DNA of 26,385 nt from positions 1 to 26,385 of IMG/VR virus record IMGVR_UViG_3300049783_000681; one strand, 5' to 3'. The position numbers and the translations under genes are program-made. Positions 4,237 through 26,385 of this stretch are shown here, piece after piece (position 1 is the first letter of the stretch; each line of letters opens with the position of its first letter). The stretch comes from a virus. Below the pieces are notes generated by a model that saw only the letters and a program-made list of their open reading frames with translations, had not been told where the DNA came from and searched no databases.

Positions 4237-4240
4237 TTAG

Positions 4241-6265: not shown

Positions 6266-6266
6266 A

Positions 6267-8081: not shown

Positions 8082-8082
8082 C

Positions 8083-8090: not shown

Positions 8091-8114
8091 TATTATACAA
8101 AGGGTTATATACAT

Positions 8115-9581: not shown

Positions 9582-9584
9582 ATA
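9577..9584 (+). promoter_or_regulatory. T4-type late promoter TATAAATA (exact consensus)
   Basis: The exact T4 late promoter octamer TATAAATA overlaps the stop codon of the third fibre gene and ends 28 bases before the ATG at 9613. A GAGGA ribosome binding site at 9602-9606 lies between the two. This is the best of the three late promoter candidates in the window. Confidence 0.65.
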
Positions 9585-9612
9585 CATTATATACGTAGTT
9601 TGAGGAAATAAC

Positions 9613-10509
9613 ATGGCAGTAGGCGATTTAATCACAGCGGCACGATACAATAACGCACAAGCAAGAGTGGCTGCGATTATGGGAGTCGGCTCAACCACAG
9701 AAGGTTATGGACAAACTTTAAATAGTTCGCAAGTTAGTACAGCACTTACAGTTACAGCGGCACAAGTTAATGCATTATATGCTGATCTTGTAGCTGGCAC
9801 AATACACCAAACTGGGTCAACTCCGACTACTATTGCAGAAATAGTAGTTGGTAATTCCATTGCTGATGCAACAAGTGACAATCCTGATGGTGCAAAGAAA
9901 GGCTTCCAGGACTACGAAGACCTAATTACAATATTTGAAGCAGACCCAGCTAGATTTGCTGTGGCGGCGTCACAGACTACTAACGGTACTGGTGTTACTA
10001 GCACAAGAACTGCCGCCTGGAACACTGATATTGCACACGTAGTAAGAGTTGATTTTACTACAGCTGACGCACGTAGAAATTATTTCAATGCCGGCGGCAC
10101 TATTAAGTTTGAAGCTACTTTAGCAAGCGCCGGAGATGCAAAGTCGAATGATTGGGCCAGTATGTTATCTAACATGGGCACAATAGCAATGGGATACACT
10201 GCAACAACTTCAACTGGTACAGGAACAGTTACTTCGATTGGTAACTTTGATTTAACTTCATCTAATCAAGTACTATTTCGCAAGCCTGGAACAGGTGTTT
10301 ACTCTGCAAACGATTATTATGTTTATGCAAAGGCAAACTCTGCAACACAACTAGAGTTTACACTGCAATTCCAAGAAGAAGCCGCAGGCAATCCAAACTT
10401 TGACGAGCAAGTAAATGGTACACTAGTAAACTCTGTTAAGTTTAAACGCCCAAGCGGATCATATGTAACATTACCAGCACCGAGTTTTGTTACCGTAACT
10501 TCACTTTAA
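9613..10509 (+). CDS. Conserved virion structural protein (298 aa)
   Basis: A 298-residue protein starting MAVGDLITAARYNNAQARVA, with a GAGGA ribosome binding site 6 bases before the ATG and an exact late promoter ahead of it. The N-terminal half looks helical (QVSTALTVTAAQVNALYADL near residues 40-60, then FQDYEDLITIFEADPARF). The rest is Thr/Ser/Asn-rich and probably beta, with FNAGGTIKFEA near residue 160. There are no enzyme motifs, signal peptide or membrane helices. Related proteins sit at the end of the structural block in marine T4-like phages and are annotated only as structural. It closes the virion block in this window: a strong host-type promoter follows directly after its stop. 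Confidence 0.65.
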   Translation: MAVGDLITAARYNNAQARVAAIMGVGSTTEGYGQTLNSSQVSTALTVTAAQVNALYADLVAGTIHQTGSTPTTIAEIVVGNSIADATSDNPDGAKKGFQDYEDLITIFEADPARFAVAASQTTNGTGVTSTRTAAWNTDIAHVVRVDFTTADARRNYFNAGGTIKFEATLASAGDAKSNDWASMLSNMGTIAMGYTATTSTGTGTVTSIGNFDLTSSNQVLFRKPGTGVYSANDYYVYAKANSATQLEFTLQFQEEAAGNPNFDEQVNGTLVNSVKFKRPSGSYVTLPAPSFVTVTSL

Positions 10510-10512
10510 CCA

Positions 10513-10541
10513 TTGACAACACCCGCTTTTTAGTATATACT
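10513..10541 (+). promoter_or_regulatory. Sigma-70 type promoter TTGACA-N17-TATACT
   Basis: The -35 box TTGACA (10513-10518) matches consensus exactly. The -10 box TATACT (10536-10541) differs from TATAAT at one base, and the spacing is 17. The expected start of transcription is near 10548, giving a leader of about 20 bases with an AAGGAG ribosome binding site at 10557-10562, 5 bases before the ATG at 10568. It lies in the only sizeable gap between the virion block and the accessory operon, so it probably drives the operon with host RNA polymerase. Confidence 0.8.
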
Positions 10542-10567: not shown

Positions 10568-10903
10568 ATGGACGAACGACTAGAACAAGCATTAGCCGTT
10601 AGTAAAGCGTTAGAAACACATCAAAATCAAAAGAATATTCTACATAAGCAATACAAAGATAATCTAATCTATTACTTTGATGGACAGAAAATTAGCGTAG
10701 ATCTTTCATTAATTGCGTATTGTACAACAAAAACAATGCCAATAGTTATTATTGATGATAATAAGACTCCGGTGCTTATTGATGACATAGAAGAATTTAC
10801 TAAAAAAATAACAGCAATGTACGAAACTGCTTCTCGTAAGTACTTTATGGAGTTCAAAAAGATTAAGTCAAAAAGATCAGTAAAGGAACTTATTGACTTA
10901 TGA
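10568..10903 (+). CDS. Small protein of unknown function (111 aa), first gene of accessory operon
   Basis: I do not recognise a functional domain. The protein starts MDERLEQALAVSKALETHQN, probably an amphipathic helix, followed by a beta-like middle (DNLIYYFDGQKISVDLSLI, residues about 36-54, and PIVIIDDNKTPVLIDDI near 60-76) and a basic helical end (FMEFKKIKSKRSVKELIDL). It has no signal peptide, membrane segment or Cys motif. The ribosome binding site AAGGAG is strong and the sigma-70 promoter lies directly upstream, so it is probably well expressed and early. Its stop overlaps the next ATG (ATGA at 10900), which points to translational coupling with the glycosyltransferase. It could be a small phage regulator or accessory protein, but nothing in the sequence decides this. 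Confidence 0.6.
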   Translation: MDERLEQALAVSKALETHQNQKNILHKQYKDNLIYYFDGQKISVDLSLIAYCTTKTMPIVIIDDNKTPVLIDDIEEFTKKITAMYETASRKYFMEFKKIKSKRSVKELIDL

Positions 10904-11748
10904 CACAAGGCGTACTGTTATTTGCGTATAATTCTAAAAACATGGATTATACAAAGCAAGCTATATATTGTGCTAAACTTATTAAGCAACACCTTGGCAA
11001 AGAGGTTGCACTAGTAACTGATGACGAATCATACCTTAACCGACAATATCCCTTTTACAAAAAATACATAGACCATGTTATTATTACAGGGCATGAAGAT
11101 GCTGTACAAGAGCGAGTGTATAACGATGGGTTGTATCACAGTGATAAACAGCGTTGGTACAATACTAATAGAAGTTCGTGTTTTGAATTATCTCCGTTTG
11201 ATGAAACAATTGTAATAGATACTGATGTTTTAATTTTTAATGACGAGTTAAACAAATGCTTTGGGTCAGCTGAAGATTTCTTAATATCAAAAGACTACAA
11301 TTTTGTAGACATGAAACGAGACTATTCTGAGTTTGATAAAGTATCTGAAACAACATGTGATATGTTTTGGGCGACTGCATTTTATTTTAAGAAAACAGAT
11401 TTCACAACTGTATTTTTTAACCTTATAGAACACATTAAAGAAAACTGGCATTTTTATAGATTAGTTTATGAAATTGCAGAAATTAAGTTTAGAAATGATT
11501 ATGCATTTAGTATTGCTATACATACGTTACGCGGAATGAAAGATGCTACATGGCCGTTACGTGTTCCTGCAAGTATATGGATCACAGTAGATAAAGATAT
11601 CTTATATTCAATTGACGATACTAAGTTAACAGTGTTATTACACAAAGATTATGATTATCAATTAAGTGCAATTAGTGATGCCACTGTACACGTAATGAAT
11701 AAGTTTTCATTAGAGCGGTGCATTGATAAGGTGTTTGAAGATGAGTAA
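10900..11748 (+). CDS. GT-A-like glycosyltransferase (282 aa)
   Basis: A 282-residue protein starting MTQGVLLFAYNSKNMDYTKQ. The N-terminal beta-alpha pattern (GVLLFAYN...AIYCAKLIKQHL...EVALVTDD) fits a nucleotide-sugar binding fold. A DTD motif at residues 107-109 (TIVIDTDVLIF) is the expected metal and nucleotide-sugar binding DxD of GT-A enzymes. The C-terminal third holds several Trp/Tyr residues (FWATAFYFKK, ENWHFYRLVYE) that could form the acceptor site. No signal peptide or membrane anchor is seen, so it acts in the cytoplasm. The next gene encodes a second protein of the same type, and their ends overlap by 8 bases. Donor and acceptor are unknown. The assignment rests on fold pattern and motif only. 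Confidence 0.65.
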   Translation: MTQGVLLFAYNSKNMDYTKQAIYCAKLIKQHLGKEVALVTDDESYLNRQYPFYKKYIDHVIITGHEDAVQERVYNDGLYHSDKQRWYNTNRSSCFELSPFDETIVIDTDVLIFNDELNKCFGSAEDFLISKDYNFVDMKRDYSEFDKVSETTCDMFWATAFYFKKTDFTTVFFNLIEHIKENWHFYRLVYEIAEIKFRNDYAFSIAIHTLRGMKDATWPLRVPASIWITVDKDILYSIDDTKLTVLLHKDYDYQLSAISDATVHVMNKFSLERCIDKVFEDE

Positions 11749-12583
11749 CGGTGTTTGTTTACTAGCGCAAAATAATATCAAGACTGACTATGTCCGGCAA
11801 GCATACGCACTTGCATTAAGTATTGTTGCAAAGTCACCTAATCAAAAAGTAAGCCTTATTACTAATGATCCTGTAAGTGACAAGTATAAAAAGGTATTTG
11901 ATCAAATTATTCCTATTCCGTGGTCAGACGATTGTTCCGACGACAGTGACTGGAAAATTGAAAATAGGTGGAAAGTTTATCACGCAACTCCTTACCGTAA
12001 CACAATGGTATTTGATGTTGATATGTTAGTACTTGAAGACTTAGATATTTACTGGAAACAGCTACAAAAAAATAACGTTGATCACGACATATTATTTACA
12101 ACACAGGTAGTTAATTATCGAAACGAAGTTGTTACTAATAGATATTATAGAAGAACATTTGATGCAAATGATTTACCTAATTTATATTCGGGAATGTATT
12201 ATTTTAAAAAAGCAGAAACAACAAAACAATTTTTTGGGTTGTTAAAAACTGTTATGTGGAACTGGGGCGACTTTTATAAAATTAGTTTAAGTAAGATACC
12301 ACAAGAATGGTGTAGCTTTGATGTGTGTACTGCAATAACTGCAAAGCTATTAGATAGAATGTACACAGTGGGTGATAAGAATAACATACTAGAGTTTACA
12401 CATATGAAAACTCGTTTACAAAATGTACCATTAGGTGAAAAATGGACAGACACCTTGTTTGTTGATTTTAATAGCGATCTTGAATTAATAGTTGGTGGAT
12501 TAAAACAGTCGGGTGTATTTCATTATGTTGAGGACGAGTTTTTAACAGACGGAATAATAAATATTTTAGAGGATGCAGTATGA
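11741..12583 (+). CDS. GT-A-like glycosyltransferase, second copy (280 aa)
   Basis: The ATG at 11741 overlaps the end of the previous gene and is preferred to an in-frame TTG six codons upstream, because the protein then begins MSNGVCLLAQNNIKTDYVRQ, matching the start of its neighbour. The DxD motif is DVD at residues 92-94 (TMVFDVDMLVLED). The shared layout is visible: beta-alpha start, Asp-rich middle, then a Tyr/Phe-rich region (SGMYYFKKAETTKQFF) that parallels ATAFYFKKTDFTTVFF in the other protein. The two are clearly paralogues that have diverged, so they probably add different sugars or act on successive acceptors. The stop overlaps the next start by ATGA at 12580. Confidence 0.65.
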   Translation: MSNGVCLLAQNNIKTDYVRQAYALALSIVAKSPNQKVSLITNDPVSDKYKKVFDQIIPIPWSDDCSDDSDWKIENRWKVYHATPYRNTMVFDVDMLVLEDLDIYWKQLQKNNVDHDILFTTQVVNYRNEVVTNRYYRRTFDANDLPNLYSGMYYFKKAETTKQFFGLLKTVMWNWGDFYKISLSKIPQEWCSFDVCTAITAKLLDRMYTVGDKNNILEFTHMKTRLQNVPLGEKWTDTLFVDFNSDLELIVGGLKQSGVFHYVEDEFLTDGIINILEDAV

Positions 12584-13200
12584 GTTATTATGCATATTAC
12601 AATGAAAAGTTTGAAGTAACAATGATCAGTAATGAGCTTGATAATACTACACATGATATGTTTATTATTATTGACGAAGTTATGTTTTTAGCATTCGCAG
12701 AAGAAAAGATTAACTATTCTAATTATGCAGTAATCGGCGGGAAGCTAACATTAAAAGCAGAGCTTGAATTAGAAAAATATACAGACTCTAGAATTCCAGT
12801 AACACTTACTGACGAAGTATTTGAAAACTGCTTAATGGTAACACAAGATAAAAAAAATAAACATTGGTTTGCACAGTGTTATGTTAGTACAGAAGTTATT
12901 GAAAATTTTGTATTACTACCTAAAGAGCATATTGAAAAAAAGATATTTACATTCTACGTAGTATCAAAGGATAACAGATTTATTTTACTAGACACTATCA
13001 AAGTGCCTGCTAAAAATATTCTAACTAAAAAAGAAAGCTGGCGGCAACATGGATTGCGTGACAACGAAGACGTTGAAGTATTTACATCACCAGCATACAC
13101 TATTGCAGATTTTGATACATCAGTAGTAACACAAGATGTTAGATTACTGTGTCGTAGAGATTTCTTAACGTATCATCATAAAGTAGGAGAGTTGGCATGA
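12580..13200 (+). CDS. Protein of unknown function (206 aa) within glycan operon
   Basis: I do not recognise this protein. It starts MSYYAYYNEKFEVTMISNEL and has a beta-rich first half, two histidines near the end of a long acidic stretch, and a late segment CRRDFLTYHHKVGEL. It has no visible nucleotide-binding loop, signal peptide or membrane helix. It is coupled on both sides by ATGA overlaps (12580 and 13197) between a glycosyltransferase and a glycosyltransferase-like protein, so it is probably translated in fixed proportion to them and may be a partner subunit or acceptor-binding protein. Base composition and codon use look like those of the neighbours. Confidence 0.6.
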   Translation: MSYYAYYNEKFEVTMISNELDNTTHDMFIIIDEVMFLAFAEEKINYSNYAVIGGKLTLKAELELEKYTDSRIPVTLTDEVFENCLMVTQDKKNKHWFAQCYVSTEVIENFVLLPKEHIEKKIFTFYVVSKDNRFILLDTIKVPAKNILTKKESWRQHGLRDNEDVEVFTSPAYTIADFDTSVVTQDVRLLCRRDFLTYHHKVGELA

Positions 13201-14117
13201 AAATTATAGATTATGATATCATTTATTTGAGTTATGATGAACCAAATGCAGAAAAGAATTATGCAGACCTATTAAGCAAAGTGCCTTGGGCAAAGCGTGT
13301 ACATGGTGTAGAAGGCAGTGATGCCGCACACAAAGCATGTGCTAAACTAAGTGAAACAGATCGCTTTATTACAGTAGACGGTGATAATATTATTAATCCT
13401 GACTTCTTAGGACAGGAACTTGACTTTGACGAACATACTGATTTAGAACATAGTGTAATTAGTTGGTGCGGCAGGAACATAATTAACGGATTAATGTACG
13501 GCAATGGTGGATTAAAATGTTGGCCAAAGCAGTATGTGTTAGATATGAAAACACATGAAAATGCAGAAGCAAACAATCCGCATGCACAAGTTGACTTTTG
13601 CTGGGATCTAAAATACATACAGCAAAACAGTTGGTATAGCGATGTGCATAATAATGAAACTGCACTACAAGCATGGAGGGCAGGTTTCCGTGAAGGTGTT
13701 AAAATGTCATTAGATCAAGGAGTGCGACCAACTAAAGAAGCGTTCTTACAAGGCCATTGGAAAAACTTGCAAAGATTGTGGGTGTGGTTAATGGCAGGCG
13801 CTGATGTGGAAAATGGACTATGGGCTATTTATGGTGCTCGAGAAGGATTGTACATGACAATGTGTACAGATTGGGATTATGTACAAGTTAGAGATTTTGA
13901 ATATTTAAACGAGTACTGGAATAAAACAGTTAGTGTATATATAAATGACGACAACTTGTTAGAATCAATTCAGCGGTTAGGTAACAGTCTTATTGATGAA
14001 TTAGAAATACCTATTGCTGAAAATCCTTTAGATGCACAACAAAGTAAGTTCTTTAAAGCAGTTTACCAAAACCCAAGTAGAAACAGCAGAAAACAATTTG
14101 TGATCGATCCTGAATGA
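13197..14117 (+). CDS. Glycosyltransferase-like protein of marine phage type (306 aa)
   Basis: It starts MKIIDYDIIYLSYDEPNAEK, a beta strand and turn followed by WAKRVHGVEG and a helix (AHKACAKL), then ITVDGDNIINPDF with a DGD motif at residues 61-63 in the place of the DxD of GT-A enzymes. NGLMYGNGGLKCWPK (residues about 99-113) is also found in the paralogue at 24554 (NGLVYGNGGIKLFPR). A Trp-rich C-terminal half follows (WKNLQRLWVWLMAGADVENG). Related proteins occur in marine T4-like phages without known substrates. The conserved DxD, the opening strand and the location among sugar genes suggest glycosyl transfer, but it could be an inactive or non-sugar nucleotidyl enzyme. The next gene starts after a 36-base gap that contains no promoter I can support. 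Confidence 0.6.
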   Translation: MKIIDYDIIYLSYDEPNAEKNYADLLSKVPWAKRVHGVEGSDAAHKACAKLSETDRFITVDGDNIINPDFLGQELDFDEHTDLEHSVISWCGRNIINGLMYGNGGLKCWPKQYVLDMKTHENAEANNPHAQVDFCWDLKYIQQNSWYSDVHNNETALQAWRAGFREGVKMSLDQGVRPTKEAFLQGHWKNLQRLWVWLMAGADVENGLWAIYGAREGLYMTMCTDWDYVQVRDFEYLNEYWNKTVSVYINDDNLLESIQRLGNSLIDELEIPIAENPLDAQQSKFFKAVYQNPSRNSRKQFVIDPE

Positions 14118-14153
14118 GCAATGAATAACACTATACAGATAAAGAATAATTAA

Positions 14154-15725
14154 ATGAAAAAAAATGATATTAAGTTACTTAAAGACAAAAATGGTGAGTT
14201 AACTAGTGACCCTTCAAATGTTGAAAATGTAAATAAGTTGTTAAACAACAAAGGCTGCGGCTTTTGTCTTGCAAAGTTTACACAAGTAACTATGCACTTA
14301 GGCACCGGCTATATGCATAGTTGTCATCACCCTAAAATGCATAAAATACCCTTAGACGAATTACAAGAGGACTATCGTGCATTATTTAATACTAAGCATC
14401 TAAAAAAAGCTCGAAAACAAATGCTTACTAATCAAAAACCTTCTGAATGTGATTATTGCTGGAGAATTGAAGATGACGGCAATCTCAGCGATCGTAGTTT
14501 TAAAAGTATGAAACCATGGGCACTTGATCGGCATGATGAAATTATAGAGTCGACTGGTGACGAAAATATAACTCCTACGTATTTAGAAGTTAGCTTTAGT
14601 AATGCATGCAACATGAGTTGTTTATATTGCGGTCCTCAGTTTAGTAGTAAGTGGGTTGAAGACCTTAAACAAAAAGGTCCAATGAAAGTTTTAGAAGGAT
14701 TGGGCGAAAATGAACGCTGGGTTCAAGGTTGGCAGGATCTTGATACATTAAACTATAAAAATAGAGAAGAAAATCCGTATGTTGAAGCATTTTGGAAATG
14801 GTTTCCTGAAATATACTCTAGTTTAGAAACATATAGAATTACTGGCGGAGAACCTTTAATGTCAAAGGAAACTTTTCGCAGTATGGATTGGATAGCAGAA
14901 AATCCAAATGAAAAACTTGATTTTTCAATAAACACTAATTTAGGTGTGCCTGACAAGTTATGGCAAAAGTTTATTGAAAAACTTAAAAAAATAAAAAATA
15001 ATAAAGTTAAAGGCGTTACAATATTTACAAGTTGCGAAGCATGGGGCAAACGTGCTGAGTATATACGTCGAGGATTAGATTTTGAATTATTTAAAACAAG
15101 GTACGAAGAACTTGCAAGTTTAGGAAATGTTAAAGTAGTTGTTATGGCAGCATACAATGTATTAAGTATTTCAAGTTTTCAACAATTCCTAGAATGGCAA
15201 CTTGAAATGAAAAAGAAATACAATTTTAATAGTGCTGTGTTATGGTGGGAAGATAATGTTCCGTTTAAATTTCGTGAAGGACCTAGTAATGTTGAGCTAA
15301 AGAAAAACTCACCGTCCCATATCTTACCATTAGGTATCGATATACCTTATGTTAGACATCCACGATTTTTGGATGCACAAATATCTACAGATCAACTAGT
15401 ACAAGATTTTATGATTCCAACAATGAATTATATGGCAAATAATACTGTTGATAATAAGTGGATGATGCATACTTCGTTTGAACTTAATGAAATGTATAAG
15501 TTAAAACAAATCACAGACCATAGAATGTCAATAACACATTCAATTGAGCCAAATACTCCACATCATTATAAAACTATCATTATGCCTAGAGCAGAGCTTT
15601 ATGACTTCCTTAATGTTAAAGACTCTCGTGACGGAACTAATTTCCTAGAAACTTTTCCTGAAATGGCAAAATTTTACGAAGAATGTAGATTAGCTAAAGA
15701 AATAGTAAGATCTAAAATAGCATGA
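14154..15725 (+). CDS. Radical SAM enzyme with N-terminal twitch/SPASM-like Cys domain (523 aa)
   Basis: The radical SAM cluster motif CX3CX2C is at C152, C156 and C159 (SNACNMSCLYCG) and the GGEP motif at 231-234 (RITGGEPLM), so it cleaves S-adenosylmethionine to start radical chemistry. Before the core there is a second Cys set (C35, C38, C57, C99, C102, with SCHHP and CDYCWR), which fits an auxiliary iron-sulfur cluster. This corresponds to the twitch or SPASM type, but it is placed on the N-terminal side. The C-terminal 150 residues have no known domain. It is strongly similar to the gene at 21000 (shared HKIPL, NTKH, TSCEA-GK-AEYIR-GLD). The substrate is unknown; twitch enzymes include BtrN, a sugar-ring dehydrogenase, and SPASM enzymes often modify peptides. 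It lies between sugar genes. Confidence 0.82.
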   Translation: MKKNDIKLLKDKNGELTSDPSNVENVNKLLNNKGCGFCLAKFTQVTMHLGTGYMHSCHHPKMHKIPLDELQEDYRALFNTKHLKKARKQMLTNQKPSECDYCWRIEDDGNLSDRSFKSMKPWALDRHDEIIESTGDENITPTYLEVSFSNACNMSCLYCGPQFSSKWVEDLKQKGPMKVLEGLGENERWVQGWQDLDTLNYKNREENPYVEAFWKWFPEIYSSLETYRITGGEPLMSKETFRSMDWIAENPNEKLDFSINTNLGVPDKLWQKFIEKLKKIKNNKVKGVTIFTSCEAWGKRAEYIRRGLDFELFKTRYEELASLGNVKVVVMAAYNVLSISSFQQFLEWQLEMKKKYNFNSAVLWWEDNVPFKFREGPSNVELKKNSPSHILPLGIDIPYVRHPRFLDAQISTDQLVQDFMIPTMNYMANNTVDNKWMMHTSFELNEMYKLKQITDHRMSITHSIEPNTPHHYKTIIMPRAELYDFLNVKDSRDGTNFLETFPEMAKFYEECRLAKEIVRSKIA

Positions 15726-16945
15726 TACAACTAGCACATGACTGGATAGGACCAAGCGGCCCTTGGCCAAACGGTCAGAGTCTAGATTTACTAACGTCTC
15801 CTAAGAATTACGAAGATTCTCACTATTCTATTACTAATACCGTCTATAATCTTGAAAGTAAAAGACATCCGTACACTTATTCTAAACTACATGCAATTTT
15901 AGGCAAGAATATAACGCACAGCCACATTCTTGATTGTAACAACAAATTTATATATGAACTAACTCCGTTGCTTAAACCTTATCAATGGACTAGTAATGCA
16001 TTTGATAATGTAAGTGCAGTAGCAATACAAGCACAACAAGCCGGCAAGTGTTTGTTTGTTATTAATGATATGAACGAAGGTTATTCAAACAACACATATA
16101 ACTTTTTTAAAAACTTACACGAGCAACTTGATAAATTTAAATTAGCCCCAGCTAACATATTGTACATCACAATGAATTCTGTTGCAGAGAATGAGTATGC
16201 TAAGTGGACAAAATTAAATAATGTAACTTGTACAATCAATATATCTACAGTTTATTTGTACGAGTCTGTTGATAGTGTTAATGATAGTATTGGTGTTCCT
16301 ACAAAGCATTTTATATGTCTAAATAGACAACCAAATCCATTACGGCAGTGTTTAGTCTATGTGTTATGGCAACGAAATTTATTACAATACGGTCATATTA
16401 GTATGCCAGGTGTAAATGAACTGTTAGATTTTAATTTTGATAAAACTAATCTTCAATTATTTAATATAGATGATAGTCGCTGGCAAGAATTTTTAGACAC
16501 ACTTCCTTATATTGCAGATGGAAGAAGTTTTACAGAACAAACATGTAGTACCAATTCAATAACAGATTTTTATTACGATAGTGTATATAGTATTGTTACA
16601 GAAAATACTATAGGTGAAAAAGATTGCATAAAGTTATCTGAAAAAACATTTAGGAGTTTAGGTAATTATTGTTTGCCGTTACATATGTATAGCAAGGGAA
16701 CCGGACAACAACTTGCTAGATTAGGGTATAAATTAGATTGCAAAGAGTATGATAACATAGTAGACGATACTACACGCTTTTGGGCGTTGATTAATAAAAT
16801 AGAAAAGATTTGTCAAATAAATATTAATACACTACACAATCAAACTAAACAAATGCGATTAGATAATAGACAAAATATTATTAATCGAAAATCACAGTCG
16901 ATCAACCAAACACGGGATTTTATTTATAAATGGCTAGGTACCTAG
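15722..16945 (+). CDS. Probable GT-B-type glycosyltransferase (407 aa)
   Basis: The ATG overlaps the upstream stop (ATGA). Two features resemble the C-terminal part of GT-B glycosyltransferases of the fucosyltransferase type: HFICLNRQPNPLRQCL near residues 196-211 (an R-rich segment of the kind that binds a nucleotide sugar) and VTENT...LSEKTFRSLGNYCLPL near 295-320, where the SEKTF-P pattern fits an acceptor/donor loop, followed by a helix with LARLGYKLD. The first 190 residues are unlike any family I know (MIQLAHDWIGPSGPWPNG at the start). No DxD motif or membrane segment is seen. The downstream ATG overlaps its end by 16 bases. Assignment is from pattern only; it could also be another nucleotide-sugar dependent protein. 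Confidence 0.5.
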   Translation: MIQLAHDWIGPSGPWPNGQSLDLLTSPKNYEDSHYSITNTVYNLESKRHPYTYSKLHAILGKNITHSHILDCNNKFIYELTPLLKPYQWTSNAFDNVSAVAIQAQQAGKCLFVINDMNEGYSNNTYNFFKNLHEQLDKFKLAPANILYITMNSVAENEYAKWTKLNNVTCTINISTVYLYESVDSVNDSIGVPTKHFICLNRQPNPLRQCLVYVLWQRNLLQYGHISMPGVNELLDFNFDKTNLQLFNIDDSRWQEFLDTLPYIADGRSFTEQTCSTNSITDFYYDSVYSIVTENTIGEKDCIKLSEKTFRSLGNYCLPLHMYSKGTGQQLARLGYKLDCKEYDNIVDDTTRFWALINKIEKICQININTLHNQTKQMRLDNRQNIINRKSQSINQTRDFIYKWLGT

Positions 16946-17823
16946 TAAGCGGCAGCAGTGGATTTTTAGGATCTGAACTAGCACATCGATTATCTGCGCA
17001 AGGGCATACAGTTGTCGGTGTAGATATAGTTCCAGGCATCTATACTACACACGTTCAATCTATCCATAGTTTTGATATAACAATAGTATATGATGCAATA
17101 TTCCATTTTGCCGCATATGTAAAAGGAAGAGAGGCTATCGAACGCAATTTCTTGACAATTGCAAAAAATATTGAACTTGACAGAATAGTTTTAGAAAAAG
17201 TATTAAAGTGTCCTCCTAAACAATTTATATATCCAAGTAGTAGTGCAGTATATCCTACTACGTATCAACAGGAAGTACATCGCTCTTTATGTGAAACTGA
17301 TATTGATTTTTCTAAAAATAATATTGGAGTAAGTGATCATTTGTATGGCTGGTCAAAATTAACTACTGAGCGAATGCTGTGGGAACTGCGTAATACTATT
17401 GATACTAAAATCTCAATAATTCGTCCTTTTAGCGGCTATGGGGCTAAACAAAGTTTAGACTACCCTATGCCTAATCTTATTAACATTGTAAAAAATAATC
17501 CAAATAATATTGAAGTCTGGGGGACAGGTAAACAAACAAGAGACTTTGTTTATATAGATGATATACTTGATACACTAGAATGGTGTTTAACGGACACTGA
17601 CCAATATAGAGTAGTTAATATAGGTACAGGCATTGCTACTAGCTTTGTTGACGTTATAACTTTAGCACATCAACTAATATACAATACACCTGTGCTAGAT
17701 ATTACATGTGTATTAGAAAAACCAGTCGGCGTACTAAATCGATATTGCGATAATACACTTCAAAAACAGTTAGGCATTTATCCTAAAATATCTCTAGAGC
17801 AAGGGATAAAATTAATGCTATGA
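16930..17823 (+). CDS. NAD-dependent sugar epimerase/dehydratase, extended SDR family (297 aa)
   Basis: A typical extended short-chain dehydrogenase. The dinucleotide-binding loop GSSGFLG lies at residues 8-14, the Ser triad region at 103-105 (PSSSAVYP), and the catalytic YGWSK with Y139 and K143. RPFSGYG follows, then VWGTGKQTRDFVYIDDI, which is typical of nucleotide-sugar epimerases (UDP-glucose 4-epimerase, GDP-mannose epimerase and CDP-sugar relatives). The length is slightly short but complete. It likely interconverts or dehydrates a nucleotide sugar in the cytoplasm and supplies a donor for the glycosyltransferases in the operon. The exact substrate cannot be read from the motifs. There is a 16-base overlap with the upstream gene and ATGA coupling to the B12 radical SAM gene. 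Confidence 0.9.
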   Translation: MARYLVSGSSGFLGSELAHRLSAQGHTVVGVDIVPGIYTTHVQSIHSFDITIVYDAIFHFAAYVKGREAIERNFLTIAKNIELDRIVLEKVLKCPPKQFIYPSSSAVYPTTYQQEVHRSLCETDIDFSKNNIGVSDHLYGWSKLTTERMLWELRNTIDTKISIIRPFSGYGAKQSLDYPMPNLINIVKNNPNNIEVWGTGKQTRDFVYIDDILDTLEWCLTDTDQYRVVNIGTGIATSFVDVITLAHQLIYNTPVLDITCVLEKPVGVLNRYCDNTLQKQLGIYPKISLEQGIKLML

Positions 17824-19607: not shown

Positions 19608-20212
19608 TAGCCCAGCCTCGCAGTGGAGGAGTAGTTTCGACACAGGTATTGAATAGAATTTACCCGTCGCACAACAATCTGAATGAACATTTTAATTGTC
19701 ATAGATACGGATATAATATAAATGATCAATTAATATCTGCACATGCGCAACAACCGTTTATTGTCAAAGTAAGCTACTTTGATCTAAAAGATGTATTTGA
19801 TGAATTAGTAAAGTTTGCCGCTGATTGGTACCATGTAACTCGCACTAACCCGGTTGAAATGGTATGCAGTAGTTACTTGTCATCAATTACAGGAGTTTTT
19901 CATTTAGACAATAATGAACTACATACACCGTTGTCAAGTGTTATTATACCTAAAGGTTTTATCGAATCTTTCTTTTCTAAAGGTAATCCAGGCGGCTGGC
20001 ATTATAATTTAGCTAGTAATGTTCCTTTCTTAGATAATATAAATTATAAAGAAATTAAATACAATGATTTAATAACTCCGTCAGATGTGTATACACAGAT
20101 AACAGGAAACAAACAAAAAATAAAATTAGGTATACAAAAGCTATACCCAAATAAGGATACAAATATCGAAAATTTAAAAGAAGTAACGGACTGGGTAACA
20201 GAATATGTTTAA
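19586..20212 (+). CDS. Sulfotransferase-like protein (208 aa)
   Basis: The ATG at 19586 is preferred to a TTG three codons upstream; it overlaps the upstream stop by 22 bases. The protein starts MHSNIIVVAQPRSGGVVSTQ, where QPRSGG (residues 10-15) is a PAPS 5'-phosphosulfate binding loop like the RSGTT of sulfotransferases, although the usual Thr/Ser is replaced by Gly-Val-Val. The second motif, HVTRTNPVEMVCSSYL (R86, S95 and S96), matches the 3'-phosphate binding pattern of the family. The length is short but usual for phage and bacterial forms. It could transfer sulfate from PAPS to a glycan or other small acceptor. The altered loop makes loss of activity possible. It lies between a radical SAM gene and an SGNH hydrolase gene. 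Confidence 0.6.
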   Translation: MHSNIIVVAQPRSGGVVSTQVLNRIYPSHNNLNEHFNCHRYGYNINDQLISAHAQQPFIVKVSYFDLKDVFDELVKFAADWYHVTRTNPVEMVCSSYLSSITGVFHLDNNELHTPLSSVIIPKGFIESFFSKGNPGGWHYNLASNVPFLDNINYKEIKYNDLITPSDVYTQITGNKQKIKLGIQKLYPNKDTNIENLKEVTDWVTEYV

Positions 20213-20996
20213 AAATAAAAGTACCCTAGTAGTTTTTGGAGACAGTAATGTTTGGGGAGCAGAACTACCAGTCTGTCCTAACAGACAAAAAGATTTTAAA
20301 AGTATAGTTTATCATCCTATTAATATTGACAAATGGCCGCACCATATTAGACATAGTTTTTCGGGAGTACTTGCTGAAAGGCAAAGCAGCCGTACTAGGC
20401 ACGGCATGAACATTTTAAATTTAGCTATACCCGGGTGTAGCAACGACACAATCTTCAGAAGAGTAAATAAGTTTTTACAAGGACATTATCCTGTAGACCT
20501 TAATAAGTGTTTTGTTATGATTTTTTGGACATCTGTTGAAAGAAGGGAATTCTATCATTCAGCTGAAATTGAAGGGAAAACATACTTTAATTATTCTCCA
20601 ACTTGGGGCCACCTTTATCAAAACGGCCTTAAGACAAAGTTTCACAAAATTTATTCTAGATCTGTTTTTTCTGAGGAATTTGATATAACAAAAACTTTTA
20701 ATTATATATATTCTTCAAATGCTCTATTATCATATAAAGGCGTAGATTTTGTACAAGGTTATTCATTGTTTAAGGATGAGATATCCAACTTAGTAACCGA
20801 GCATAAGATGCCAAATTTTATATCTCACACCCAAAACGACTCACTCCATACTATTGCGGCCAATGCCGCTGGTTTGAATGGCAGGACTCCTTTGCCTAAT
20901 CCTTATCAATTTGAAGGCAGTCATCCTACAGAATTAGGTCATTTAGTAATTGCAGATAGAATCGAAGAACTTCTCAAACAAAGACAGGCAACATAA
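20205..20996 (+). CDS. SGNH/GDSL hydrolase (263 aa)
   Basis: Block I is GDSN at residues 12-15 with nucleophile S14. Block II is PGCSNDT with G77 and N80. Block V is GSHPTELGH with H240, preceded by E237 instead of the usual Asp. Thus Ser, Gly, Asn and His of the SGNH set are present and the fourth position (Asp to Glu) is altered. SGNH proteins remove or transfer acyl groups from sugars, peptidoglycan or lipids. No signal peptide is visible, so it would act in the cytoplasm, more likely on a precursor than on the outer surface. The start overlaps the sulfotransferase-like gene by 8 bases, and the next gene follows after 3 bases. Confidence 0.75.
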   Translation: MFKNKSTLVVFGDSNVWGAELPVCPNRQKDFKSIVYHPINIDKWPHHIRHSFSGVLAERQSSRTRHGMNILNLAIPGCSNDTIFRRVNKFLQGHYPVDLNKCFVMIFWTSVERREFYHSAEIEGKTYFNYSPTWGHLYQNGLKTKFHKIYSRSVFSEEFDITKTFNYIYSSNALLSYKGVDFVQGYSLFKDEISNLVTEHKMPNFISHTQNDSLHTIAANAAGLNGRTPLPNPYQFEGSHPTELGHLVIADRIEELLKQRQAT

Positions 20997-20999
20997 ATT

Positions 21000-22457
21000 A
21001 TGAACGATGATTATAAAACTAATAGCAAAGATTATAAAAAATATAAAGAAGAAATATTAAATAACAAAAGCAAAAGTTTTTGCGGAGCAAAATGGTATAA
21101 TGCAACAACTTGGTTAGGTAGTGGTACAACTGCTAGTTGTCACCACCCGCCTGCACACAAAATTCCTTTAGAGGAAGTAGAAGCAGATTATACTGCTATT
21201 CACAATACTAAGCATAAGAAAGAAATGCGCCGTCAAATGAAATGCGGCGACCGCCCAGGCGAATGTGAGTACTGCTGGAAAGTAGAAGATATGAAGAAAG
21301 ATGCAGTAAGCGACCGTATCTTCAAAAGTATTATATATACCGACAAAGATTTGCAGAAAGCATTTGATTTAGACCACAATGAAAATGTTGAATTGAAAAC
21401 ATTTGAAATAGCATTTGATAGAGTGTGCAACTTAGCATGTAGTTATTGTAATGCTAGTTTTAGTACCACATGGGCAAAAGATATTAATAACAATGGCCCG
21501 TACGAAAACTTAGTTAGCGATGGAGCAGGAGCGTTTAAACAAGACGGCAGCTGGGCACAGTTGTATGATAATGATGATGATAACCCTTACATACAAGCAT
21601 TTTGGAAATGGTGGGATAACGGTTTAGCAGATAGTTTAGAAGAGTTGCGTATTACAGGCGGTGAACCGCTTATGTCAGGTAATACTTGGAAACTGTTTGA
21701 TTGGTTTGAAAAACAAAACTCTAATATGCGATTTGCTATTAATAGCAATCTTATTGCAAAAAATGGTATCATTGACAAGCTAGTATCAAAGGCAAAAAAT
21801 ATTAATAATTTTAGTATATATACTAGTTGCGAAGCAACAGGTAAGCAAGCAGAATATATTCGCGACGGTCTTGATTACGATCAATGGAAGTCTAATTTAG
21901 TTCGTATGTTATCAGAAACAAATGCAGAAATGAACATAATGATGACTATTAATAGTTTATGCTTGTTTAGTATTACAGATTTCTTAGATGAGATATACGA
22001 ACTTAAAGGCGAATATAAAGATAATCAATTAGCAGTAAGTTTAAATTTATTACGTTTTCCAAGTTTTCAAAGTCCACTAGCATTGCCAGTGCATCTTAAA
22101 GATCACTGTTATAACAATCTAAATAATTGGTATAACGCAAACAAGCACAAAGCGTTATGGCACGAGCACGAAAAAGCAAGCATCGAACGGTTAATTGATT
22201 ACTTAGTTACTGTTGACTCTCCGCATAGGCGCACGAGCAATCCTGTAACACTATGGCGCGACTTCAAAACATTTTATGCACAATACGATGTAAGACGAAA
22301 TAAAAACATAAACGTGTTTCCTAAAATCCTAACAGATTGGATAGAAAGTATTCCTGATACAGATTCAAGTATTATGGAACTTGCAGAAAAAGAAGGTTGG
22401 ATATTAAATCCTGATCCTAAAAATATTAAAGAGGCGCTCAGTACTTATGAAAAATAA
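21000..22457 (+). CDS. Radical SAM enzyme with N-terminal twitch/SPASM-like Cys domain, second copy (485 aa)
   Basis: The radical SAM motif is at C143, C147 and C150 (VCNLACSYCN) and GGEP at 220-223 (RITGGEPLM). The N-terminal Cys set is C28, C47 (SCHHP), C82, C89 and C92 (CEYCWKVED), placed as in the gene at 14154 and likely to bind an auxiliary cluster. Long stretches match that gene: HKIPL, DY-A...NTKHKK, TSCEATGKQAEYIR-GLDY. It differs in its C-terminal region, which is shorter and unlike the other copy. It is followed by a third radical SAM gene whose ATG lies 11 bases before its stop. A different substrate or a different step in one pathway is likely, but neither is readable from the sequence. 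Confidence 0.82.
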   Translation: MNDDYKTNSKDYKKYKEEILNNKSKSFCGAKWYNATTWLGSGTTASCHHPPAHKIPLEEVEADYTAIHNTKHKKEMRRQMKCGDRPGECEYCWKVEDMKKDAVSDRIFKSIIYTDKDLQKAFDLDHNENVELKTFEIAFDRVCNLACSYCNASFSTTWAKDINNNGPYENLVSDGAGAFKQDGSWAQLYDNDDDNPYIQAFWKWWDNGLADSLEELRITGGEPLMSGNTWKLFDWFEKQNSNMRFAINSNLIAKNGIIDKLVSKAKNINNFSIYTSCEATGKQAEYIRDGLDYDQWKSNLVRMLSETNAEMNIMMTINSLCLFSITDFLDEIYELKGEYKDNQLAVSLNLLRFPSFQSPLALPVHLKDHCYNNLNNWYNANKHKALWHEHEKASIERLIDYLVTVDSPHRRTSNPVTLWRDFKTFYAQYDVRRNKNINVFPKILTDWIESIPDTDSSIMELAEKEGWILNPDPKNIKEALSTYEK

Positions 22458-23736
22458 AGATGCAGTTTTAAAAACTAAACAATTTTGTATGGCGCCCTGG
22501 ACGCACATGCACTTCATGCCAAACAAAGATGTTAATCCTTGTTGCTTGTCACCTATTGACGAAACAATTGGCAATATGGAAGAACAAACAATAAAAGAAA
22601 TTTGGAACAGTGAGGACATGCGTCAGCTACGCAATGACATGTTAGAAGGCAAAGATTGTGCAAACTATTGCGGACGTTGCTATGAAAAAGAAGAAGACGG
22701 GTTTAGTAGCTTGCGTACACACATGAATGATAGTTATGCAGATACTCATTGGGATAAAGTAGAATCTACTAAAGAAGATGGTACTGTAGACGATTTAAAT
22801 TTAGTTCATTGGGATTTTAGATTTAGTAATATATGTAATCAAAGTTGTAGATCTTGTGGTATAGAATTTAGTTCCCAATGGCATGGAGACTTTATTAAGC
22901 TCTGGGATATACCCAAAGATCAGCAACCTGCAAAAATTAAAAAGATTTGGCGAGACGTAGATGCATTTGAAGACGACTTTGAAGAATTGTTTGACAAAGT
23001 AGAATACATACATTTTGCAGGCGGTGAGCCTCTTATTACTGACGAACATTATAAAGTTTTAGAAAAACTAATTGAACGCGGTCGTACTGATATTACAATA
23101 CGATATAGTACTAATTTTAATCAATTGAAGTATAAAAAATATGATGTAATAGAAATGTGGAAACATTTCAAACATATTCAACTTATAACAAGTTTAGATG
23201 ATTACGGTGATCGTTATAATTACATTCGCAATGGCGGCGAGTGGAATAATGTAATTGAAAATTACAAAAAACTTAAAGAAGCTGGCCTTTTTGATAACGG
23301 TAATATTTGGTTTGGTATACACCCTACTATTAGTTTTTGGAATATTTATTATCTTCCAGATTTCCATGAAGAATGTATACGGTTAGGATTAATTGATATG
23401 AATGCTAGAAATAATGATCATCACTTTACTCAATATTTTCATTTAAATCCTTTAACATTTCCTTCGTATTATTCTCCTCAAATATTACCTAAAGAACATA
23501 AAGAAAAGGTAACAAAAAAATTATTAGAATATGCTGAATATCTTACAGCTACGTATAATGTGAATAGTGCGCCGCTTGTTAGTTTAGTAGATTTAATGAA
23601 TGCACACGACAACACAGCTGAGTTGCCGCTTATGAGAGAGTGGACGACTAAACTAGACAAACTTAGAAACCAAAATTCTAAAGAAACTTTTCCTTTCCTT
23701 GCAGAGATATTTGACAATGACATCCCCACCGCATAA
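22447..23736 (+). CDS. Radical SAM enzyme with N-terminal twitch/SPASM-like Cys domain, third copy (429 aa)
   Basis: The radical SAM motif is at C130, C134 and C137 (ICNQSCRSCGI) and GGEP at 192-195 (FAGGEPLIT). The N-terminal Cys set is C14 (FCMAPWTHMHFMP), C32-C33 (NPCCLSP), C71, C75 and C78 (CANYCGRCYEKEE). This is richer than in the two other copies and close to the CxxxxW...PCC...CxxC pattern of stand-alone SPASM-like domains. Sequence identity to the other two is low outside the core. The end (PFLAEIFDNDIPTA) contains the start of the next gene, which overlaps it. Its function is unknown; the shared layout suggests that it works with or after the second copy. Confidence 0.82.
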   Translation: MKNKDAVLKTKQFCMAPWTHMHFMPNKDVNPCCLSPIDETIGNMEEQTIKEIWNSEDMRQLRNDMLEGKDCANYCGRCYEKEEDGFSSLRTHMNDSYADTHWDKVESTKEDGTVDDLNLVHWDFRFSNICNQSCRSCGIEFSSQWHGDFIKLWDIPKDQQPAKIKKIWRDVDAFEDDFEELFDKVEYIHFAGGEPLITDEHYKVLEKLIERGRTDITIRYSTNFNQLKYKKYDVIEMWKHFKHIQLITSLDDYGDRYNYIRNGGEWNNVIENYKKLKEAGLFDNGNIWFGIHPTISFWNIYYLPDFHEECIRLGLIDMNARNNDHHFTQYFHLNPLTFPSYYSPQILPKEHKEKVTKKLLEYAEYLTATYNVNSAPLVSLVDLMNAHDNTAELPLMREWTTKLDKLRNQNSKETFPFLAEIFDNDIPTA

Positions 23737-24523
23737 CTGGAATTTAAAAAATATACAGTCGTCTAAATCTAGTCTAGAAGATATAGGTTGTTTAAATTGT
23801 TATATAAAAAATACATGGCACACGTTTACTAAAAACAAAAACGATTCCTGGTCTGTTCCGTATTTTAACGATAAAGAGTTGTATTTTGATAAAGACCCGT
23901 GGAACTATTATATTAACAAATACGGTTATCGCGGCGACAATTGGACTTTCAAAAAGGTGCCTGCTTTTTTTGGATGTAGTTTTACGTTTGGCATTGGTGT
24001 TGAAACTCCTTTTCCTGCACTTATACAAAAACAATATTCTGATGATACAGTAATACCTAATATAGGAATACCAGGCGGCTCACCGATTTCTATAATAAAA
24101 TCGTTTGTTGCTTTTGCTAATTTACACCCTATGTCTCATGCATTTATTAGTTTGCCTCAAATTGATAGATTCCATTATTCTGAAAGATGCGATGATAAGT
24201 GGACGTTTGCACAGATTGTTCCAAATGCCGCAACCCCAAAGAGCCAAAAACGTATACTAAGTATGTGGATGGGCGATATGTCTCGTGCGTTTACTACTGA
24301 CTATATAGATTGGGCCGAATCTGTTGCAGAAAGCAAAGGCATAAAGTTATTTTGGGGGTCGTGGGATAACGAAACGTATGAATTTATTAAGCCGTTAGTA
24401 GCTAATAACTTCGAATGGTCTCCGGGGGATCTTATGGGAGCGAATATTGGCCGCGATGGCGCCCACCCAGGACCTGATATTCACAAAGATATGGCAGACC
24501 GAGCTTGGAGTATAATAAATTGA
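23717..24523 (+). CDS. SGNH-like hydrolase, second type (268 aa)
   Basis: The ATG at 23717 is preferred to a TTG six codons earlier; the coding overlaps the upstream stop by 20 bases. A proposed block I is FGCSFTFGIGVE with S88, where the usual GDS is GCS. Block II is GIPGGSPISII (near residues 110-120) and block V is DGAHPGPDIH with D247 and H250. An 80-residue N-terminal extension, rich in aromatic residues (WNYYINKYGYRGDNW), is absent from the SGNH protein at 20205. No signal peptide is seen. This form, with GCSFTFG, is common in phage and bacterial gene clusters for surface glycans. It may be an acyl esterase or acyltransferase acting on a sugar. Its final TGA lies within the -35 box of the next promoter. 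Confidence 0.65.
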   Translation: MTSPPHNWNLKNIQSSKSSLEDIGCLNCYIKNTWHTFTKNKNDSWSVPYFNDKELYFDKDPWNYYINKYGYRGDNWTFKKVPAFFGCSFTFGIGVETPFPALIQKQYSDDTVIPNIGIPGGSPISIIKSFVAFANLHPMSHAFISLPQIDRFHYSERCDDKWTFAQIVPNAATPKSQKRILSMWMGDMSRAFTTDYIDWAESVAESKGIKLFWGSWDNETYEFIKPLVANNFEWSPGDLMGANIGRDGAHPGPDIHKDMADRAWSIIN

Positions 24524-24548
24524 CAGCTTATATAAAAGGTGTTATAAT
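24520..24548 (+). promoter_or_regulatory. Perfect sigma-70 promoter TTGACA-N17-TATAAT
   Basis: The -35 box TTGACA (24520-24525) and -10 box TATAAT (24543-24548) are exact consensus and the spacing is exactly 17 bases. Transcription is expected to start near 24555, which is at the ATG of the next gene (24554-24556). The transcript would thus be leaderless or nearly so for that gene. No ribosome binding site is visible between the -10 box and the ATG. Confidence 0.7.
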
Positions 24549-24553
24549 AAACT

Positions 24554-25231
24554 ATGTATGATATTATTTTTATAAGTTATAATGAACCCGAAGCAGATGC
24601 TAACTGGAAACATCTTACTGAAACGTACTTCTGGGCTAAACGTGTACACGGCGTAACTGGAATTCACCAAGCCCACATACAAGGTGCTAAACTAGCTAAC
24701 ACAGAAATGGTCTGGTTTGTTGATGCAGATGCAATAGTAATGGATGACTTTGACTTTAGTTACGAACCTGATAAAGATAACCTAGACACAGTGCATGTAT
24801 GGCGTAGTCAAAATCCAGTTAACGGATTAGTGTATGGCAACGGCGGAATAAAACTATTCCCTCGTCAGCTTACTATTGACATGGATTTGTCACAGCCTGA
24901 TATGACAACTAGTATAACGCACAAATTTAAAGTAATGCACGAAATCGCAAACATTACAGCATTTAATACTAATCCGTTTAGTACATGGCGTAGTGCATTT
25001 AGAGAATGTGCAAAATTAAGCAGTAAAGTAATTGATCGGCAAAAAAATGAAGAAACAGATAGTAGACTGGATACGTGGTGTACCGTTGGGCGTGAAAACT
25101 TATTTGGTGACTATGCTATTCGTGGTTCCATTGCTGGGCGCAAGTATGGCGCTACTCATCAAGGCGATACTGCCGCTTTAAGATTAGTAAACAATTATGA
25201 TTGGCTAAAGGAGCAATTTGATAATGATTGA
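24554..25231 (+). CDS. Glycosyltransferase-like protein, paralogue of the gene at 13197 (225 aa)
   Basis: It starts MYDIIFISYNEPEADANWKH, matching DYDIIYLSYDEPNAEKNYAD of the gene at 13197, then WAKRVHGVTGIHQAHIQG and WFVDADAIVMDDF with DAD at residues 57-59 in the DxD position. The NGLVYGNGGIKLFPR block is also shared. It is 80 residues shorter than its paralogue because the long Trp-rich C-terminal part is reduced. The ATG lies at the expected transcription start of a perfect promoter, so a leaderless message is possible; transcripts read through from upstream would supply a leader. AAAGGAG near its end serves as the ribosome binding site of the next gene. Its activity is uncertain for the same reasons as for the paralogue. 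Confidence 0.6.
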   Translation: MYDIIFISYNEPEADANWKHLTETYFWAKRVHGVTGIHQAHIQGAKLANTEMVWFVDADAIVMDDFDFSYEPDKDNLDTVHVWRSQNPVNGLVYGNGGIKLFPRQLTIDMDLSQPDMTTSITHKFKVMHEIANITAFNTNPFSTWRSAFRECAKLSSKVIDRQKNEETDSRLDTWCTVGRENLFGDYAIRGSIAGRKYGATHQGDTAALRLVNNYDWLKEQFDND

Positions 25232-25919
25232 ATGGAAAGATGATAATGATATATATGGAAGAATGTTAGTACTAACTAATAATCCATTATTTAATAATCT
25301 TCGAAATGCAGTTGACAATCACGATGCTGATCTTAGTGATGCACTTAGTTGGGGACAACTAAAAAGTAAAAGATGGCTTGTAACTGAACTAGAATCGTTA
25401 GACATTTCGTTAGGTACTGTTTTTTTATGTGCTGGATGGTATGCTACTCTTGCGGCAATGTTATTTCAAAGTAAATGTAATATAGATAAAATTAGAAGTT
25501 TTGACATAGACGAATCGTGTTTACAAATAGCTGATACAATTAATCGAAACCAAGTTAAAGAAGATTGGAAGTTTAAAAGTATTACACAAGATATTATGGA
25601 TATTGATTATAATAAGCACGAATGGCAAATTTGGAGTAATACTAATAATAGAATGAGTTATCCTATTACAGACATGCCAGATACTATTATAAACACAAGT
25701 TGCGAGCATATTGAAAACTTTGATGAATGGTACGCAAAGATACCAAGCGGCAAGTTAGTTATATTACAAAGCAACAACTTCTTTGATGTAGACGAACATG
25801 TAAATTGTGTAGAAGATTGTACACAGTTTCGAATAACAGCACCTATGACTACTCAGTTATACGTAGGTGAATTAGAGTTACCTAAGTACAAGAGGTTTAT
25901 GTTAATTGGATATAAGTAA
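25224..25919 (+). CDS. SAM-dependent methyltransferase, marine phage type (231 aa)
   Basis: The ATG at 25224 has AAAGGAG at 25206-25212 and is preferred to a TTG two codons upstream; the start overlaps the upstream gene by 8 bases. The expected SAM-binding loop is replaced by LCAGWYATLAAML (residues about 68-80), without the usual GxGxG. FDIDESC (93-99) fits the acidic residue that holds the SAM ribose. A later block, INTSCEHIENFDEWYAKIP (about 156-174), is a likely active-site region, and QSNNFF...EHVNC follows. I recall this family from marine T4-like phages, annotated as class I methyltransferase. The acceptor is unknown. It may methylate a sugar, and a nucleic acid or protein acceptor is also possible. 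Confidence 0.65.
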   Translation: MIEWKDDNDIYGRMLVLTNNPLFNNLRNAVDNHDADLSDALSWGQLKSKRWLVTELESLDISLGTVFLCAGWYATLAAMLFQSKCNIDKIRSFDIDESCLQIADTINRNQVKEDWKFKSITQDIMDIDYNKHEWQIWSNTNNRMSYPITDMPDTIINTSCEHIENFDEWYAKIPSGKLVILQSNNFFDVDEHVNCVEDCTQFRITAPMTTQLYVGELELPKYKRFMLIGYK

Positions 25920-26133
25920 CCTTAAACTCAGACAGCTTCAAACTGAAAGTGCTAGGGCACTAAGTACGATGCAAGCTACTAATAATAATATACATCAGTT
26001 TAATAAACTAGCTCACCATAATAGTAGCAACTGGTATAAGGCTGTTATTAACTGGTACATTGAACAGTACGGTGATCTTCCAAGTGTTGTGGGTCCTGGA
26101 AAAGATGTAAAGTTGGTGTTAGATGAAGTTTAA
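25906..26133 (+). CDS. Small protein of unknown function (75 aa)
   Basis: A TTG start at 25906, 14 bases inside the upstream gene, gives 75 residues. An ATG at 25969 in the same frame would give 54. The longer form is chosen because the upstream segment (LKLRQLQTESARALSTMQ) looks like an ordered helix, with an AGAGG stretch near 25890 as a weak ribosome binding site. The rest, NWYKAVINWYIEQYGDL, is an aromatic-rich helix and the end, PSVVGPGKDVKLVLDEV, is acidic. No Cys or leader-type cleavage site is visible, so it does not look like a peptide precursor. Function unknown. The next gene starts within its last codons (ATG at 26123). Confidence 0.5.
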   Translation: MDISNLKLRQLQTESARALSTMQATNNNIHQFNKLAHHNSSNWYKAVINWYIEQYGDLPSVVGPGKDVKLVLDEV

Positions 26134-26385
26134 AAATTCACAAGATAGCTGGGAAATTAATCTTTCTAAAGACGTGACTGATATTGGGATTAAAATATCA
26201 GGCGGAGCAGATAGTGCTATTGTTACATACATGTTAGCAAAATATGTAACAGAAGAAAGACCAGATATTACTATACATCCTGTAACAGGAATAGCAGATA
26301 TAAAGCCGTATCAGTTAATATTTGCAGACCAAGTATTGCGCAAGGTAGAGGATCTAACAGGAGTTGTGTTTGCACAACATCAGTT
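26123..26385 (+). CDS. N-type ATP pyrophosphatase (PP-loop) protein, 3' end outside window
   Basis: The frame from ATG 26123 is open to the end of the window, giving 87 residues. It contains IKISGGADSAIVTYMLAKY, with SGGADS at residues 26-31, the PP-loop of N-type ATP pyrophosphatases (asparagine synthetase, QueC/ExsB, tRNA lysidine synthetase and similar enzymes). These enzymes activate a carboxyl, carbonyl or amide-type group with ATP, releasing pyrophosphate. The exact branch cannot be decided from this fragment. It overlaps the 75-aa gene by 11 bases, so it is the next gene of the same operon. A role in amidating or activating a sugar or peptide in the pathway is possible. Confidence 0.75.
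   Translation, partial: MKFKNSQDSWEINLSKDVTDIGIKISGGADSAIVTYMLAKYVTEERPDITIHPVTGIADIKPYQLIFADQVLRKVEDLTGVVFAQHQ

Follow-up and report, generated by a model that had tools for sequence, protein, structure and literature searches.

The virus record IMGVR_UViG_3300049783_000681 of IMG/VR, a linear fragment of 26,385 bp that was analysed over its full length (the window), carries behind its virion genes a run of sugar-related genes whose middle part is exchanged between closely related phages. Tail fibre genes are followed by the conserved genes A to E, and the sixth gene of this core, O, lies further downstream; between them is a slot that in the window holds the genes F to N, including four genes of radical S-adenosylmethionine (SAM) enzymes (all genes are listed below). 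From one close relative to another the contents of this slot are replaced, and the exchange has sharp borders at the two flanking genes. The best explanation of the window is that it represents the exchangeable glycan locus of a lineage of large T4-related marine phages.

Two relatives, L200 and L201, match the window with 97% nucleotide identity over stretches that begin at 3197 and 4718 and both end at 14139 (about 10.9 kb for the longer one); past 14139 only gene L still aligns (82%). A third relative, L270, is 84% identical up to 14129 and then different save for gene L (81%), with identity resuming at O (96.9% from 24554). In L021 and L022, only scattered pieces (about 71–83%) match upstream, and the match becomes continuous over 14150–18271 (87%) and 14144–22426 (80%), respectively; L020 is 74% identical over E and 85% from 14138. 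Fine alignment places the breakpoints at about 14120–14160 on the left and 24556 on the right. The nearest relatives thus share fibres and A–E yet differ in their slot genes, so slot content moves between backbones, probably through homologous recombination in the E and O flanks, judging from where identity changes. A preliminary description of this DNA had proposed one complete pathway, which is contradicted by these relatives, as they keep the fibres and A–E (97% or 84%) with different slot genes, and by the empty slots described below; a fixed four-radical-SAM pathway is ruled out, since slot contents differ between close relatives.

Viral contigs scanned with genes M, I and F yielded 95 loci with a repeated backbone of collar/fibre genes, A, B, C, D, E, a radical SAM gene and then O, P and Q. 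Because these seeds favour radical SAM loci, the scan was repeated through the E family alone, and the best 80 loci, which are partly non-independent in that some contigs are near-duplicates, were used for all counts of core and slot. B and C lie upstream of E in all 71 judgeable loci and fibre genes in 65 of 65; the invariant part consists of tail fibres, then A-B-C-D-E and O, of which B, C, E and O are glycosyltransferase-like. Where O is found downstream (54 loci), the slot comprises 0–9 genes: 38 slots have at least one radical SAM gene, with up to four each, and 15 are empty, these loci having no radical SAM gene downstream. The E frame extends to 450–1,110 residues in nine loci (L240, L246, L251, L252, L256, L271, L273, L274 and L275); these are apparently E–O fusions, which would support a joint function of the two glycosyltransferases bordering the slot.

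What co-occurs in relatives are sub-cassettes, F-G-H-I and L-M, and not the four-radical-SAM set as a whole. F-G-H-I travel together in some related contigs, mostly with K and sometimes with J. The G-H-I block is present in L015/L022, L016 and L019/L021 (where the contig ends within I) and reordered, without J, in L029; J is found in L015/L022 and L016 only, and the L-M block occurs in L005–L014. A viral scan seeded with K, using a narrow single-sequence pattern, found zero relatives. The type of D tracks that of the adhesin (Cramer's V 0.89), which is weak evidence and was set aside as support because the difference from A (0.80) is too small.

The genes of the window and the left junction are as follows.

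3–10509, + strand: virion genes g1–g6 (Pfam Collar 4e-13, Peptidase_G2 1e-5; PHROGs tail/structural)
10568–10903, + strand: A, conserved, 111 residues, family kept at the same place in relatives
10900–11748, + strand: B, GT8-like glycosyltransferase with a DTD motif (profile homology to C)
11723–12583, + strand: C, GT8-like glycosyltransferase with a DVD motif (profile match to glycogenin, 6e-6)
12580–13200, + strand: D, small protein that evolves fast
13197–14117, + strand: E, predicted GT-A glycosyltransferase, left border of the slot (fold model, Foldseek)
14118–14153, no strand: left junction of the exchanged cassette (sharp change of identity)
14154–15725, + strand: F, N-terminal twitch radical SAM enzyme (NF033640, 288 bits; CX3CX2C at 14607–14630)
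15722–16945, + strand: G, predicted GT-B glycosyltransferase (fold model, Foldseek)
16930–17823, + strand: H, NAD-dependent sugar epimerase/dehydratase (Pfam Epimerase 1.1e-33)
17820–19607, + strand: I, predicted B12-dependent radical SAM C-methyltransferase of the TokK/CysS kind (TokK 3.7e-81, CysS 1.5e-46)
19577–20212, + strand: J, sulfotransferase-like by motif only (PRSGG close to the N terminus)
20205–20996, + strand: K, SGNH/GDSL-like (Pfam Lipase_GDSL 0.002, under the cut-off)
21000–22457, + strand: L, N-terminal twitch radical SAM enzyme (NF033640, 293 bits; CX3CX2C at 21426–21449)
22447–23736, + strand: M, SPASM/twitch radical SAM enzyme (NF033640, 380 bits; Pfam SPASM 2.7e-12; CX3CX2C at 22834–22857)
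23699–24523, + strand: N, second SGNH-like gene, a label of the preliminary description (weak DUF6473 match; relatives in L015/L022)
24554–25231, + strand: O, putative glycosyltransferase homologous to E, right border of the slot (E–O profile match 7e-45)
25218–25919, + strand: P, methyltransferase-like at motif level (Rossmann-like motifs), kept beside O in relatives
25906–26133, + strand: Q, short conserved protein, 75 residues, 73–82% identical in relatives
26123–26385, + strand: R, PP-loop ATPase-like, cut by the window end (a full-length relative in L270 matches QueC weakly, 8.5e-6)

From 10568 to the window end every called gene runs in the same direction, many overlap, and all open reading frames are intact. 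The gene order bears out that the radical SAM genes are linked to, and often overlap with, sugar genes. At least four radical SAM genes had been reported, at 14154, 17820, 21000 and 22447; all are present and open with intact CX3CX2C motifs, three of the N-terminal-twitch type (F, L and M) and one TokK/CysS-like (I). F, L and M, which also have N-terminal cysteines, pass the NCBIfam NF033640 (N_Twi_rSAM) cut-off of 170 bits for the whole-protein score; a profile of M against the PDB returned repeat-protein noise only. I matches Pfam Radical_SAM (8e-12) and, weakly and below the cut-off, the Pfam B12-binding domain, and it aligns with the solved methyltransferase TokK over residues 17–460, covering the B12-binding and radical SAM domains. 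By homology I is likely a TokK/CysS-type B12 radical SAM methyltransferase, for which methylcobalamin-dependent C-methylation is predicted; it was not filed under the KedN5 family (NF033712), as it scores 225 bits against a cut-off of 700. TokK and CysS act on antibiotics, whereas I, related to them in sequence along some 440 residues, sits in a phage sugar cassette. Bacterial relatives of I have sugar genes alongside, with epimerases making up 20 of the 79 neighbour proteins scanned (a raw count) and dehydratases, aldo-keto reductases, GHMP kinases, DegT and UDP-glucose dehydrogenases among the others.

The count of four radical SAM genes is a lower bound, since the window covers only part of a genome; the 169-kb contig of the close relative L270 has 12 matches. 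Other whole contigs of relatives contain 18 (275 kb), 15 (203 kb), 15 (159 kb) and 14 (382 kb) radical SAM domains. In the contigs G005 (275 kb, locus L016), G018 (382 kb, L042), G027 (L089) and G030 (L096), as many as about 12 different radical SAM genes are arrayed within 12–17 kb, mostly downstream of O/P/Q, and among them lie oxygenase-like, SGNH-like and PP-loop genes. An A-type iron-sulphur (Fe-S) carrier gene is encoded in four larger related contigs (G005, G011, G017 and G018). The NF033640 cut-off is passed by none of the alphaproteobacterial genomes scanned, a count for that class only.

The label glycosyltransferase-like, for which Pfam gives no or weak matches, is borne out by other means. 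Since profile searches of the PDB gave noise only for E and just a 0.47 fucosyltransferase match for G, fold models were used for these two. The AlphaFold model of E (predicted local distance difference test, pLDDT, 89.8) has its best Foldseek matches among GT-A glycosyltransferases and the nucleotidyltransferase HddC (probability 0.97–1.0, with modest template modelling (TM) scores) and also matches viral glycosyltransferases, and E is thus supported as a predicted GT-A glycosyltransferase. Homology to E supports the same general function for O, and the pair has DxD motifs, DGD at residue 61 and DAD at 57. C through its glycogenin match, and B through C (profile homology, 99.8%), are supported as GT8-like, B's own glycogenin match being weak (0.07). 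The model of G (pLDDT 79.4) adopts a GT-B fold (Foldseek probability 1.00, TM 0.4–0.5) nearest the protein O-glycosyltransferases SdgB/GtfA, and the G family is related to other slot families (99.6%). The epimerase call for H is solid. The SGNH and methyltransferase-like labels hold only at motif level or with weak, sub-cut-off matches, P having no match in a Pfam scan, and the PP-loop assignment of R leans on its full-length relative. The sulfotransferase-like label of J was not upheld, as no sulfotransferase profile match was found in Pfam, NCBIfam or the PDB. Carbamoyltransferase, DegT aminotransferase and UDP-glucose dehydrogenase genes occur among these related loci (L010, 16492–17976; L062, 14189–15268; L029, 18152–19375). 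Q is among the best conserved module proteins and was unmatched in Pfam and PHROGs scans.

The module has its own sigma-70-type promoter sequence, and the adjoining fibre genes have T4-late-type sites. The co-directional run does begin behind a host-type promoter, as had been described, and a second one lies before O.

10513–10541, + strand: sigma-70 consensus promoter TTGACA-N17-TATACT, exact match, opening the sugar module
24520–24548, + strand: second sigma-70 consensus promoter TTGACA-N17-TATAAT, consensus match, before O

In relatives, a strict sigma-70 promoter is found upstream of A (40/66), E (14/74) and O (7/52), and upstream of none of B, C, D or F and none of the 142 g2–g5 cases. 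The motif NATAAATA, which we take to be the T4 late promoter motif, precedes g5 in 42 of 55 cases (2.3 expected from mononucleotide shuffles), g2 in 10 of 15 (0.7) and the adhesin in 25 of 87 (4.9), and occurs before A in none of 66 relatives. The sigma-70 site before A is absent in a subgroup of relatives; many loci of the L064–L098 group have a conserved GTAAATAGTTATACT-like stretch there instead, perhaps a different promoter class.

The virion genes g1–g6 encode a large structural protein, g2, a collar-domain fibre, two more fibre-like proteins, one of which has a Peptidase_G2 autocleavage domain, and a putative adhesin. The protein of g2 is 44–58% identical to proteins of large phages, e.g., Sinorhizobium phage Phosso, Agrobacterium phage Atu_ph07 and the 121Q group, and phage origin is supported. 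A DNA similarity search of phage records with the window gave zero matches, and tblastn there with E and F gave none.

We tentatively favour, at somewhat less than an even chance, glycosylation of the phage's own fibre/adhesin over remodelling of the host envelope. The enzymes would be made by host RNA polymerase ahead of the late virion proteins. Nucleotide-sugars or the growing glycan would be tailored by H, I and at least one of the twitch radical SAM enzymes, with I adding C-methyl groups, and B, C, E, O and G would transfer the tailored sugars. The acceptor, the least certain step, would be a virion protein, most likely the adjoining fibre/adhesin, and through the cassette the particle would acquire a sugar coat that can be exchanged, and so a serotype. 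In favour of this reading stand the linkage of the core genes to the fibres, the cassette swap, the glycosyltransferase assignments, the sugar-gene neighbours of I's bacterial relatives, the promoter split, the sugar genes of related loci and the rarity of E in the bacteria scanned. Strongly hydrophobic segments are nearly absent from the slots (1 of 135 genes), so that nothing resembling a flippase, a polymerase or a membrane enzyme of the Gtr type is evident there, in agreement with an acceptor protein in the cytosol; no window protein has more than one hydrophobic segment, unlike the GtrA flippase and membrane glycosyltransferases of a Gtr serotype-conversion cluster. Several points weigh against glycosylation of the fibre: the acceptor was not identified from sequence, synteny with the fibres could reflect module inheritance, and peptides are frequent substrates of SPASM/twitch radical SAM enzymes. 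Furthermore, soluble GT8 enzymes act on the lipopolysaccharide (LPS) core also, so the lack of membrane enzymes is not decisive, and the early-type sigma-70 timing fits host-envelope remodelling too. With still less confidence, the proposal may be extended to widespread large marine phages that make unusual (e.g., C-methylated) tail-fibre glycans through radical SAM enzymes and switch serotype by cassette recombination between the flanking glycosyltransferases.

Remodelling of the host envelope, in which enzymes made from host-type promoters alter the host surface glycan and block rival phages or the binding of progeny to debris, is rather unlikely. The sigma-70 promoter, set apart from the late-type fibre promoters, and the presence of relatives of I in bacterial surface-sugar clusters favour it, and the pelagimyophage host recognition cluster with its glycosyltransferases and radical SAM cassettes has been read in this way (PMC7029224). 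However, no membrane glycan-assembly gene is apparent in the slots, the slot differs while fibres stay 97% identical, and the core glycosyltransferase E has family members in only 1 of 289 alphaproteobacterial genomes, which says only that the family is not common in that class, and the actual host class may differ. Twitch/SPASM enzymes are often peptide maturases, and their substrate here might be a peptide, for instance Q, or a virion protein itself, the sugars then playing a secondary part. Q is a short protein of high conservation, and in relatives it is followed by arrays in which many different radical SAM genes occur. A peptide or small-molecule product is nevertheless improbable, given that no NCBIfam RiPP (ribosomally synthesized and post-translationally modified peptide) maturase equivalog was matched at its cut-off and that Q lies outside the slot.

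Phages also hypermodify their DNA with glycans, and sugars and other groups placed on phage DNA bases would accommodate the carbamoyltransferase and PP-loop genes in some relatives' loci and the GT-B fold that G shares with DNA glucosyltransferases, which rank lower among its Foldseek matches. We consider this highly improbable: the module adjoins fibre genes rather than replication genes, and the larger contigs have one thymidylate-synthase-family match each, ThyA-like (most E 1e-96 to 1e-104), with no second divergent match in that family hinting at a hydroxymethylase. The least probable explanation is a recombination hotspot carrying mostly non-functional cargo; content turnover is very high, and a like doubt was voiced for cyanophage LPS clusters (PMC3037559), but the reading frames are all intact and overlapping with intact CX3CX2C motifs, sub-cassettes are kept across divergent phages, and the A-type Fe-S carrier gene is also present in four larger contigs.

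Bacterial O-antigen and capsule (serotype) loci exchange variable sugar-gene cassettes between conserved flanking genes. The arrangement described here differs in being phage-borne and beside fibre genes, with flanks that are themselves glycosyltransferases and no apparent flippase, polymerase or ligase. Among phages, the host recognition cluster of pelagimyophages is an island of highly variable content in which tail fibres, glycosyltransferases and radical SAM cassettes occur together and, as here, the cassettes differ between related phages; the radical SAM genes are not analysed in the accessible part of that study (PMC7029224). Here, in contrast, contigs reach 382 kb, a six-gene core (A-B-C-D-E...O) surrounds a sharp-bordered slot, and the promoter split was measured. 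In a SAR11 T4-like phage that cluster is bordered by the VrlC gene and gp14, neither of which was identified in the window, and g2 of the window matches 121Q-like and Agrobacterium jumbo phages. The T4-like environmental genome TARA_ERS488813_N000010 has 12 radical SAM genes and Fe-S assembly genes, comparable to the A-type carrier here, in what the accessible text presents as an Fe-S protein tally with no link to a fibre/glycosyltransferase locus described (PMC5332604). Cyanomyovirus LPS gene clusters are sugar-gene blocks in large marine T4-like phages, but they lie near hli03 or phoH and not in a slot behind fibre genes (PMC3037559). Megavirinae have clade-specific clusters of nucleotide-sugar enzymes and glycosyltransferases for particle glycans; these are eukaryotic giant viruses whose glycans were chemically shown, with radical SAM enzymes not mentioned in the accessible part of the report (PMC10117803). 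These four viral cases are the closest published ones found. Marine phages with multiple radical SAM genes and fibre/glycosyltransferase islands are already reported; no description of the E–O slot, of its breakpoints or of the promoter split was found in the open-access literature searched.

If true, phages would possess an exchangeable surface-sugar locus like that of bacteria, with radical SAM enzymes as tailoring tools. The fibres, A–E, the slot and O form a defined, searchable unit for asking what drives glycan diversification in marine phages, and near-identical fibres with different cassettes provide a natural comparison. Together, these loci would also constitute a large reservoir of candidate radical SAM enzymes known from sequence.

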